This document shows, in pieces, positions 44,582-51,830 of a stretch of 64,000 nucleotides of DNA. Position 1 is the stretch's first letter; the number at the start of each line of letters is the position of its first letter. Position numbers and translations under genes: made by a program. The notes under the pieces are model-generated. The model made no database searches, was not told the DNA's origin, and was given only the letters and a program-made list of their open reading frames with translations. Source of the DNA: Lichtheimia corymbifera B2541 (Eukaryota > Mucoromycota > Mucoromycetes > Mucorales > Lichtheimiaceae); contig JNEU01001169.1 of assembly GCA_000697475.1 (NCBI GenBank), forward strand, positions 124,001 to 188,000. The letters run 5' to 3'.

Positions 44582-47500
44582 TTACCATCCAAAACCATCA
44601 GGCTTTGCAGGAGGAGCACCCCATCCATCACCAGCAGGTTGAGCAGGAGCAGCACCCCATCCATCATCAGCAGCAGGTGCAGGTGCAGCAGGTGCAGGTT
44701 GAGCAGCAGGTGCAGGAGGTTGTTGTTGTGGAGGTGGAGTAGCAGCAGCAGGTGGAGTTTGTGCTGGAGGAGCTGGAGATCCCCATCCATTGCTTACAGG
44801 TGGTTGTTGAGGAGTAGGTGCAGCTGGTTCACCCCATCCACCACTAGCAGGTTGTTGAGCAGCAGGTTGCTTAGGAGCTGGTTCACCCCATCCACCATTA
44901 GCAGCAGCAGGTTGTTGAGCAGGCGATTGTTGTTGTTGAGGTTCACCCCATCCACCAGCAGCTTGAGGAGCAGGTGATGGCTGCTTTTGAGGCTCACCCC
45001 ATCCACCAGCAGCTTGAGGAGCAGGTTGTTGAGCAGGCGCAGGTTCACCCCATCCACCACTGGTAGAAACAGGTTGTTGAGCAGGTGATGCTTGTTGTTG
45101 TTGAGGTTCACCCCATCCACCACCAGCAGGAGCAGGTTGTTGAGCAGGTGCAGGCTCACCCCATCCACCAGCAGCAGGAGCAGGTTGTTGAGCAGGAGCA
45201 GGTTCACCCCATCCACCACCAGCAGCAGGAGCAGGTTGTTGAGCAGGAGCAGGTTCACCCCATCCACCACCAGCAGCTGGTGCAGCTTGAGTAGCAGCAG
45301 GTTCACCCCATCCACCACCAGTAGCTGGTGCAGCATTGTTACCAGAATCCCATCCAGCAGAAGCAGCATTGGCATCCCAGCCGCCACCAGTAGCGCCATT
45401 GTTACCAGAATCCCATCCAGCAGAAGCAGCATTGGCGTCCCATCCAGCAGTACCAGCATCAGCAGTACCAGCACCATAATCACCAGAGGCACCATAGCCA
45501 TAATCATCACCGCCGGCACCACCTTCACGTTGAGCACCACACTTGAAGCATTCAGTACGGCGAGCATAGTTGACAACACCGCAGCTAGGTAGATGGGCTG
45601 ATGGTAACTATTTACACTCAAGTCTGCACTTTCAATCACGATTTGCCGCTGCATTTACTATGTGACTTGCCATTTCCGTACTAAGCCTTTCTATGCTTAT
45701 TTTTAGCGTACTATTGCGTGCAATGATTATCAGCCACATTTTTGTGGATGAATATTTATCCGGATCATTAGAGCTAGTTATCCTACTTACTTAGCCGACT
45801 TACTTGTCCAGTCAAAAGACTTACTACACTTAAATATAATTTGACTAGAATTTAATAACAGGCTTACATTCGACCATAACTGAATTAAATGGAGTACATT
45901 ATTCATTGTAGAATATCACACATCTACTAGTGGCAGAGATAAAGGAAACTAGTGGCAAACTTTCAAACCAATAAAGCATATATTTATACACTTTCGCTGT
46001 AATCACTATCATCACTATCATCAGATGGAACTTCTGAGCTATTGGTAGAATCTTCATCCTCACTATACTCAAAATCATCTTCATTAAGGGAAGGCGACCT
46101 TGGCCTACGTTGAGGAATAGTCGAAGAGTCTGCTATCATGATATAATGATGAGAAAATTAATCCTATCCACGTTTTCCATTAAACTTACCATCTTGAAAA
46201 TAGCTGAAATCAGTAAATCGTGGCATTGGCATTCTAATCTGATCACGTCCATGGGATATTTCACCTTCCTCACGACCGTCATCAATAGTTTCAAATGCCA
46301 CATCACGTAGGGAACTCAATAATCTCCCCCACCAATCATCACTATGTTTGCGACGCCAAATAAATTCAATAAGCTTCCACGGGGTCATTTGTTTTGTCCG
46401 CTGGCGCTCCGTGATACCACGCTTAATTCCAGCCCAAGTGCCTATATATGACTCATGATTAGTATAGGCCAATTCCTGCCATGAAGATCAATGATGTGTG
46501 ATACCTTCAATATTGTTTGTGTGCACACCTTCTTCTGTCACAAACTCGATACGATGGTTTACTGCTTGGTGTACCCAATACATCCCTTCTGTATCTCGAA
46601 GGCCAGAGTAAGCACTCCAACCATCAGAACGGATTAAACTACCCGGCTTGACGAAATGACAGATGACTTGTGTTAACGTTTCAGCGTCACGGCGTGGAAC
46701 AACAGCAAGGAATATCTTTCTTTGTGGTGTCAATTCTATACCACCTAGAACCCAAACACCTTCGACTGGATGCCCGCGGTTATCCTTTCGCTTTCCAAGC
46801 TTGCTCTCATCGATTTGGACAATGATGCTCTCTCCTGTTTGAGTATATCCTCCTATGAACATGCTTAGCCACTTACATATATAATGGAAAGCATGCAACA
46901 ATGATCCTGAAACTTACAAACATGCATGTCCTCACGAGTAAGATCGGCCTCTAGAAGCAAATGGTCATCCCTTGCAAGTCGACGAACTGTAATACGACTA
47001 GTGCCGAGCATGGATGTAATGCTTTGTTGCGACATTCCATGGAATAACCCCCAGAGACCTTGAACTGCCAAATGGACACCCAGGTTGCGATTCGAAAAAA
47101 AAGATCCCGATTTCAAAGCACGTCTCTCCCGGGAGCCTTTGCCAGGGAGACAACCACAAGCTGCTGATGGGCATTGCCACATAAGGCCATCGCGACTAAA
47201 ATTGTTCAAAGTCATGGTCGTGCCATGCACACATGACATGGTTTCATAGAAAAAACCATGTTCCTTCAAGTAACTAGTCAAGTGTACTATTAGACACCAT
47301 CTTCGATACAGTGTAATTCAATTACAAATATACCTAATAGTAACTTGAACGTTCGGTGTAAGTGCAGCAAGCTCAAGCAAGGAAGACAAGGTACTGTGGG
47401 CATACATAGTATTTGGTAACGTAAGATGAAGGTAATAGCAGCGAAGAATGGACGATGGGATGGGGAATTCAGGTAGACACACCGCATATATATATACTTT

Positions 47501-50500: not shown

Positions 50501-51830
50501 CAATGCATGCCATTATACTGCAGTGGAATGTAGTAACTTACTTGCACAGGAGTGGGTTGAGTATAGCGAGCGAGACGGATGTTTTCCTTCATGACAGGAT
50601 GTAAATTGGCAGAATCGAACTATAAAAGGAGGATGTGAGTCGATAGATGTATTGATGACAACGACAACAACAACTTACGTCCTTGACAGGAGCAGGAGCT
50701 TCACCACGTTCAATGTTGATAGGAATGTTGGCGTACTTTGAGAAATCCAAGGGAGTGTGTTGTTCAGTAGGATCAAAGCCGAAGAGTTCAGCTTCCAATT
50801 TTTCATCACGTGGAGCCATGCCATCTTCACCAATAGCATTTTCATTGAACTCATAGCGAGCACGGTTGGAAGCCCAATTGTAAGCACGTTCTGGACGATC
50901 TTCTGGTGGTGGAACACCCATGCCTTCGGGTCGAGCAGCTCCGCACTTGAAGCATTCAGTACGGGTACCAAAGTTGTTAATGTTACACCTACAAACACGC
51001 GTGAACAACGCGTCAGTCAAATCTTGGTTTTTTTTTTCCACAAACAAAGAAAAAGAAAAGTAGTATACATACGAAGGACAATCCCAATCTCCAGGACGAG
51101 GTTCACGCTTAGGAGGACCCATGCCTTCAGGACGAGGTTCATTGCATTTGAAACATTCTTGACGACTGGCAAAGTTGTTGACACCACAGCTATGGATGAT
51201 TGATTGTGTTAACACAATGATTATAATATATGTATCCTTCTTTTTTTTTTTACCTTGGGCAATCCCAATCTCCAGGCCGAGGTTCACGTTTGGGTCGGCC
51301 CATACCTTCAGGACGAGGAGCGCTACACTTGAAACAAGCATCACGACTGGCAAAGTTGTTCACACCACAGCTACACGAGAAAAGCAAAAGAACACGCGTG
51401 TGTGAGACTCATACTTTTTCCGAGAGAGAGAAAGATGAAACAGCATTCATGACAAACGTCATCATCAATCAATCAAAATCCTTGATAACACTTACTCTGG
51501 GCAATCCCAATCACCAGGACGTGGAGTGCGTGCAGGCCTGCTGTCATAGTCGTCGCCACCGCCATAGTCGCCGCCACTGCCATAATCACCACTGGCACCA
51601 TAGTCATTGGAAGTGTCATTGGAAGTAGCGAATTCACCACCACCAAAGTTGCCGGATGCAAAAGGGTTGTTGTCTTGACCACCAGCGGCATCGCCAGAGC
51701 CACCCCAGGGCGTGCTGCTGCCACCATCCCATGGTGTGCTGTTGCCGCCATCCCATTGGCCGCCACCGCTGCCACCACCAGCGCCCCAGCTGTCGCCACC
51801 GTTTGCGTTATTGCCTGAATCCCACGACAT
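44582..51830 (-). CDS. DEAD-box RNA helicase (Ded1/Vasa-like) with five RanBP2 zinc fingers and a GW/WG-repeat tail
   Basis: About 14 exons, roughly 1,050-1,100 residues. The N-terminus [20 protein letters not shown] is Gly/Trp-rich. Three RanBP2-type fingers follow ([45 protein letters not shown]). The helicase core has PTPVQ (Q motif), [22 protein letters not shown] in [32 protein letters not shown] and [13 protein letters not shown]. The lead-in [22 protein letters not shown] is Ded1/Vasa-like. After the core come fingers 4 and 5, then a tail of about 335 residues with 18 GW dipeptides (four GWD, ten GGWGEP, GWGSP, GWGAA, GWGAP and terminal FGW). RanBP2 fingers bind single-stranded RNA; GW/WG arrays bind Argonaute in other systems. 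A Merlin-like transposon lies in the intron splitting finger 5 (45585-48567). Argonaute binding is inferred. Confidence 0.88.
45588..45595. repeat. Target-site duplication, left copy (GGTAGATG)
   Basis: GGTAGATG flanks the Merlin-like element; the identical right copy is at 48514-48521. Eight bases is the usual target duplication of Merlin/IS1595 elements. On the helicase strand this copy forms part of the 3' splice-site region (CATCTACC then TAG). Confidence 0.85.
45596..45621. repeat. Left terminal inverted repeat of the Merlin-like element
   Basis: Begins GG after the duplication, six non-matching bases, then the perfect 18-bp core GTAACTATTTACACTCAA at 45604-45621. The same core reversed ends the element at 48488-48505. 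Confidence 0.85.
45984..47515 (-). CDS. Merlin-type DDE transposase (possibly interrupted)
   Basis: Exon blocks: MINFEKVY...[12 protein letters not shown] (start 47515), then [15 protein letters not shown] and a zinc-ribbon-like segment ([14 protein letters not shown]), then a helix-turn-helix-like part ([21 protein letters not shown]). The DDE region follows: [11 protein letters not shown] (first D), [30 protein letters not shown] (second D), [19 protein letters not shown] (E) and [16 protein letters not shown]. These match ISXO2/IS1595 transposases (QVDE-, SDGW-, HTNxIEG-type motifs). A last exon encodes an acidic tail ending SDYSESV and TAA at 45984-45986. The junction near 46865-46915 is problematic: the best donor creates a stop codon, while an alternative weak donor keeps the frame. 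Intactness is therefore uncertain. Confidence 0.65.
48488..48513. repeat. Right terminal inverted repeat of the Merlin-like element
   Basis: Core TTGAGTGTAAATAGTTAC at 48488-48505 (perfect reverse complement of the left core), then six variable bases and terminal CC at 48513, next to the duplication. Confidence 0.85.
48514..48521. repeat. Target-site duplication, right copy (GGTAGATG)
   Basis: Identical to the left copy at 45588-45595. Removing the element plus one copy restores a 57-nt intron in the helicase gene. Confidence 0.85.

Follow-up and report, generated by a model that had tools for sequence, protein, structure and literature searches.

What does a DEAD-box RNA helicase do with zinc fingers on both sides of its core and a long array of Gly-Trp (GW) dipeptides at its end? 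The question is raised by a gene of the fungus Lichtheimia corymbifera B2541 (Mucorales), found in a 64,000-nucleotide stretch of contig JNEU01001169.1 (positions 124,001 to 188,000; assembly GCA_000697475.1), hereafter the window. The gene occupies positions 44582..51830 of the window on the minus strand, as do all of its parts given below, with the start codon at 51830 and the stop codon ending at 44582, which are exactly the limits given in an initial annotation made from the letters alone. That annotation proposed a helicase with an Argonaute-binding hook; its observation is confirmed, its interpretation is partly supported, and it was right to caution that Argonaute binding was an inference. 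By direct observation, the locus combines a DEAD core, RanBP2-type fingers, and a GW tail, has a close paralogue in the same genome, and conserves the tryptophan (W) motif of the tail unequally with the linkers between motifs. With somewhat better than even confidence, the DDX3/Ded1 lineage is viewed here as having a second, specialised representative in this gene, whose product would work as a ribonucleoprotein (RNP) scaffold with a multivalent tryptophan docking tail.

The splice model comprises 15 exons that encode 1122 amino acids (aa), is phase-consistent, and contains no internal stop. From the N-terminus, the protein consists of a region with five W, three RanBP2-type fingers, the DEAD/Helicase_C core, two further fingers, and the GW tail. 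A Pfam run on a provisional 1130-aa model, which differs from the final model at exons 8 and 9 only, returned DEAD (9.8e-42), Helicase_C (9.7e-32), and five RanBP2 stretches (4.5e-45), bearing out the complete core and five fingers of the initial annotation; besides these, the run yielded just a sub-threshold Rubredoxin match and no GW182/TNRC6 accessory domain. Exon 1 (51496..51830) encodes the N-terminal low-complexity region and the beginning of finger 1. WG/GW motifs had also been claimed for the N-terminus, where the first 100 residues do contain two WG among their five W but no GW. Introns 1-13 measure 50-125 nucleotides (nt) and include 12 with GT-AG and one with GC-AG ends, and intron 14 measures 2983 nt; GC-AG ends thus occur at one of 14 introns here and at two of eight in the paralogue, C397. 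A 29-nt micro-exon 8 (50104..50132), matching C397 in size and place, was chosen because it is homologous to an exon of that gene and restores a conserved RKFTYRS..RPC.VYGG stretch; an 18-nt exon 8 with a 32-nt intron and a 26-nt exon 8 were both dropped in its favor. Identity with Mucor RnhA was rejected, that protein being a helicase described as Sad-3-like, with the domains UvrD_C_2 and NF-X1 (PMC5384783). One scan of viral contigs yielded no relative of the gene. Among the matches listed in the literature on combinations of helicases, fingers, GW repeats, and Argonautes, as judged by title and abstract opening, none described a DEAD core, RanBP2 fingers, and a GW tail in one protein.

The tail (44585..45445) contains 18 GW dipeptides, ten of them in GGWGEP units, and on both counts the initial annotation agrees with the final gene model. 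All 18 W are preceded by glycine, 13 lie in GWG, and they stand 9-42 residues apart (median 16), with 15 of the 17 spacings being at least ten residues. When the tail, a low-complexity sequence with 30% P+Q and 1.3% K+R, was shuffled 5000 times, the mean number of GW was 3.5 and the maximum 10, versus the 18 observed. At the nucleotide level, the tail is plainly a tandem array: its period is 48-51 nt, and the codons within the motif are nearly uniform. Codons that depart from the commonest one were counted in 11 units in a row (W881 to W1056). Around the W, the 55 codons compared (five per unit) include 2 nonsynonymous and 6 synonymous departures, while the 110 flanking codons (ten per unit) include 53 nonsynonymous and 5 synonymous ones. 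A version of this test on units selected for GGWGEP was set aside, because such selection itself fixes the answer, and was redone on the 11 consecutive W units just described. The counts suggest selection on the W motif of the tail. Searching the genome with the tail brought back nothing apart from the query gene, two weak hits to its fingers, and a pair of overlapping hits in a frame of GLFG type; this search is insensitive because it missed GW arrays that a pattern search found (see below).

The helicase core (49005..50619, exons 5-12) is complete, with the motifs GSGKT, DEAD, SAT, and HRIGRT, and has motif Ia (PTRELC) and motif VI (RTARVG) in common with C397. Among PDB sequences its best match is DDX3X (473 bits), followed by Drosophila Vasa (384), Bombyx Vlg (370), and Dbp2 (325), and it is 62% identical to a Ded1-like gene of the same genome (C260) and 58% identical to DDX3X. 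In a small tree of nine sequences, which may suffer from long-branch effects and in which the exons of C260 and C414 were joined by hand and the outgroups C148 and C4 are raw open frames, the query pairs with C397 (support 100), and this pair joins DDX3X and the genome's two other Ded1-like genes (bootstrap 92; approximate likelihood-ratio test 96.7), with Vasa outside. The approximately unbiased (AU) test rejected a placement of the query outside both groups (p=0.030) and one inside the fungal Ded1 pair (p=0.017), but not one with Vasa (p=0.075); the Shimodaira-Hasegawa test rejected none of these three alternatives (p 0.10-0.18). The defining N-terminal motif of canonical DDX3/Ded1 members is YxPPHxR, which is absent in the query and C397 and present in C260. 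Because this motif is absent, the query, which shares the helicase core with canonical Ded1/DDX3 and differs from it also in its fingers and GW tail, is read as a specialised paralogue rather than a canonical Ded1. From these comparisons, C260 appears to be the canonical Ded1 of the genome, and the query and C397 are best read as a branch of the DDX3 lineage, perhaps an old one. The Vasa-like label of the initial annotation is not supported: membership in Vasa/DDX4 is rejected on score and on the best tree while still being statistically allowed by the AU test. DDX4 is reported to be absent from plants and fungi (PMC10411587).

The other family members in the genome bear on how tryptophan-rich ends are distributed. 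C397 has no finger by Pfam and a 153-residue tail with nine W, four of them in GW. The second Ded1-like gene, C414 (minus strand), is 71% identical to C260; upstream of its core, several open frames together make up an N-terminal region rich in WG/GW, and those pieces of it that were counted, as unspliced frames, hold 11 W. C260 itself has a few W in its N-terminal frames. Three of the four DDX3/Ded1 family members found thus have a W-rich end, and the termini and motifs involved differ among them.

Fingers 1 (residues 108-127; 51325..51512), 2 (residues 147-166; 51144..51270), 3 (residues 186-205; 50943..51089), and 4 (residues 744-763; 48645..48771) are split by introns 1, 2, 3, and 13, respectively, and have C-x2-C spacing of cysteines. 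Finger 5 (residues 786-804) begins at the end of exon 14 (48568..48581) and finishes at the start of exon 15 (45539..45583), with a C-x-C across the junction. Among single-finger PDB chains the best match is RBM10 (33 bits for finger 2 and 33 for finger 4); the RanBP2 and Nup153 chains with one finger give 20-26 bits, the longer TAF15 and FUS chains 21-30, and ZRANB2 25-29, while whole RanBP2/Nup358 and two-finger Nup153 chains reach similar or higher totals merely by summing fingers. The query fingers share CGV-NF--R--CFKC with those of RBM10/RBM5, but here five copies flank a helicase core on both sides. As expected of RNA-binding fingers of the ZRANB2/RBM10 class, all five have the four zinc cysteines and, in alignment to RBM10, the R20-equivalent arginine; R19 is present in two. 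These arginines contact guanine, human RBM10 is described as tolerant at the third base, and the mouse RBM10 finger is reported to bind RNA weakly, at about 10 uM (PMC6384913). From these contacts and the tolerance at the third base, the predicted target of the fingers is GG-containing single-stranded RNA. Elsewhere in the genome, a six-frame search detected three RanBP2 fingers each in genes at G000:C315:70224-70703 and G000:C300:31337-31873; such a search misses intron-split fingers, since it recovered just one of the five in the query.

If the gene does encode a specialised DDX3/Ded1-lineage scaffold, the DEAD core would clamp and remodel RNA in the ATP cycle, and the five RBM10/RBM5-like fingers could grip single-stranded RNA that contains GG without depending on the cycle. 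Through its regularly spaced tryptophans, the low-complexity tail would dock multivalently onto partner proteins that have tryptophan pockets, and it may also condense into RNP granules. Candidate partners, which would be in competition, are Argonaute, Caf40, and the protein itself through self-association; Argonaute is plausible in this role, although its assignment as the partner is tentative. Several points weigh against the scaffold and its docking tail. GLH-1 of Caenorhabditis elegans is reported to have silenced normally without its zinc fingers (PMC9887883), and fingers may therefore be dispensable in such proteins. The probabilities attached to the codon counts in the tail (p about 1e-4 and 6e-10) overstate the case and are not strict, because duplication relates the units to one another and the presence of a W was the basis for choosing them, and gene conversion could have homogenised the W motif. 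Moreover, just four of the nine tail W in C397 are in GW, and the comparison of paralogues covers the gene's own genome only.

One competing explanation, entertained only tentatively, takes the tail for a genuine Argonaute hook, with tryptophans that enter pockets of the PIWI domain and couple RNA unwinding to small-RNA silencing. The genome contains three Argonaute loci and five RNA-dependent RNA polymerase (RdRP) loci. Two of the RdRP genes lie side by side at G000:C425:63032-69100. To compare tryptophan pockets, 15 positions of human AGO2 were mapped onto the Argonautes, the exons of which were joined by hand, making positions near exon junctions less certain. Nine of these positions are ones that we take to belong to the pockets. 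The others are P590, F659, K660, and E695, from the ALG-1 equivalents in PMC5147811 with an offset of 143 set in this analysis, and C691 and P700, from PMC9262622. Argonautes C59 and C248 agree with AGO2 at 11 of the 15 (P590, A620, L650, F653, Y654, K660, I687, C691, L694, Y698, and P700), which speaks for a hook, yet they differ at F587 (S), V591 (T), F659 (Q), and E695 (D), and the third Argonaute, C169, keeps only six (L650, F653, I687, C691, Y698, and P700), with a gap at P590 and the changes Y654M, K660R, and E695A. To judge from these alignments, the pattern matches the variability described for fungal tryptophan pockets, of which the third alone is said to have distinct conservation (PMC12477606), and such variability itself argues against a hook. 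The tail does present reiterated GW in low-complexity sequence, with two or more W separated by no fewer than ten residues, the sequence criterion for a hook, and its 15 spacings of at least ten residues are as described for TNRC6 (PMC9262622). Further, the Neurospora helicase SAD-9 provides a precedent (PMC10411587), and SDE3, going by the title of a reference in PMC12477606, is a helicase that carries an Ago hook. The step from GW spacing to an Argonaute hook in the initial annotation finds partial support in the pocket positions kept by C59 and C248 and in SAD-9, but GW arrays are not diagnostic in this genome. A frame-independent DNA pattern of three spaced WG codons gave 79 matches genome-wide, 4 of them in the query tail, versus 25 for the reversed pattern, and six further GW places were opened from these matches, picked by eye. 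They include a CASC3/Barentsz-domain frame with 30 W, 14 GW, and tandem DEGWGS units (G000:C73:29500-38500, 3705-6191, plus strand); a frame of 23 W and 12 GW whose tail is GW-rich and for which a kinase match of 31.2 bits lies just under the Pfam cut-off of 31.7 (G000:C188:53000-61500, minus strand, 3043-4632); and an S/T/N/D-rich, 832-aa frame with 27 W, 16 GW, a zinc-knuckle-like C-terminus, and no Pfam domain (G000:C369:154000-162500, minus strand, 3211-5706). By its sequence, this last frame would match or surpass the query as a candidate GW182-like or Argonaute-hook protein. Two others are acidic D/W/K/G repeat frames, one on C336 (17 W, 8 GW), whose product is probably secreted, given an apparent signal peptide seen by eye, and one on C412 (15 W, 2 GW); the sixth, on C260 near 92 kb, is an open frame with 7 W and 2 GW. 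Because unrelated proteins (Barentsz-like, kinase-like, and apparently secreted) carry GW arrays here, an array alone is no evidence of an Argonaute hook.

Equally open to doubt as the hook is the suggestion that the tryptophans act only as cohesive stickers for condensates, without a specific pocket partner. It fits a low-complexity tail with evenly spaced aromatics, and it gains from W-rich ends that vary in place and motif, lying in the tail in C397 and at the N-terminus in C414, because such differences between paralogues are expected for composition and not for a fixed motif. However, a glycine that never varies ahead of the W, together with the strong retention of the neighbouring residues, exceeds what sticker spacing would need. 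Docking of the tail to CCR4-NOT through the tryptophan pockets of CNOT9/Caf40, by which the helicase would be a translation repressor or decay factor, is improbable in our estimation, and draws on the presence of an Rcd1/Caf40 gene on C402 and on the W-binding pockets of CNOT9 named in the title of a reference in PMC9262622. Lower still is the probability given to a neutral tandem-repeat expansion without function: the clear tandem array, its 48-51-nt periods, and its near-uniform motif codons are what such expansion would leave, but the linkers vary freely where the W-flanking residues do not, and a W-rich tail is retained in C397.

For the favored scaffold with a docking tail, the nearest working analogues would be SAD-9 of Neurospora crassa and GLH-1 of C. 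elegans. SAD-9 is likewise a fungal helicase of the DDX3 subfamily; it is reported to interact with the Argonaute SMS-2 in bimolecular fluorescence complementation, to be required for the perinuclear position of SMS-2, and to be itself dispensable for vegetative growth (PMC10411587). It differs in being a protein of 593 aa without FGG repeats that partners the scaffold SAD-2, its likeness to the query being one of description rather than sequence, and the account of it in PMC10411587 that was drawn on mentions neither zinc fingers nor a GW tail. GLH-1 and Vasa/DDX4 also join a DEAD helicase to zinc fingers and a repeat-rich disordered region, and GLH-1 is reported to interact with Argonautes (PMC9887883), but their fingers are of the CCHC type, their repeats are FG, and they belong to the DDX4 subfamily, whereas the query core groups with DDX3. 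Reiterated, widely spaced GW/WG are shared with GW182/TNRC6, Tas3, and NRPE1 (PMC9262622, PMC2904775). The accessory domains of those proteins were not found in the query by Pfam, and the tail is a hook candidate only. SDE3 of Arabidopsis is a superfamily 1 helicase of the MOV10 type, not a DEAD-box protein, and is not known to have RanBP2 fingers. It would resemble the query in bearing an Argonaute hook on an RNA helicase (PMC12477606, title of a reference).

The gene interval also contains an IS1595-type DNA transposon (45596..48513), absent from the initial annotation, which lies inside intron 14 and makes up 2918 of the 7249 bases. Its transposase open frame (46488..46913) matches DDE_Tnp_IS1595 (2.1e-11), both of its inverted ends contain an identical 18-bp block, GTAACTATTTACACTCAA, with 24 of 41 outer positions matching, and it is flanked by an 8-bp target duplication, GGTAGATG, at 45588-45595 and 48514-48521. 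We take the element to be Merlin-like. A search of the assembly with a 1001-bp piece of it found no other copy. That the transposon broke the gene is rejected because the element lies inside an intron and leaves the splice sites and the reading frame intact; without the element and one copy of the duplication, intron 14 would be 57 nt long with intact GT...AG ends. A 466-aa open frame on the plus strand (42752-44152 of the window), of leucine-rich-repeat or F-box type by eye, adjoins the gene on the opposite strand.

A wider reading, which we consider unlikely, is that the query and C397, as two paralogues with tryptophan-rich tails, represent an old sister lineage of DDX3/Ded1 that would constitute a self-contained silencing scaffold, with its own RNA-binding fingers, remodelling activity, and multi-site Argonaute hook. 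If so, one chain would unite the jobs of scaffold, helicase, and GW protein, which are separate elsewhere. Precedents exist for Argonaute recruitment by a DDX3-type helicase in Neurospora and by Vasa relatives in animals (PMC10411587, PMC9887883), and a helicase with a candidate multi-copy tryptophan array would offer a simple, testable contact for such recruitment. More broadly, the W-rich ends in three of the four family members of this genome pose the question of what they bind, be it Argonaute or another partner.

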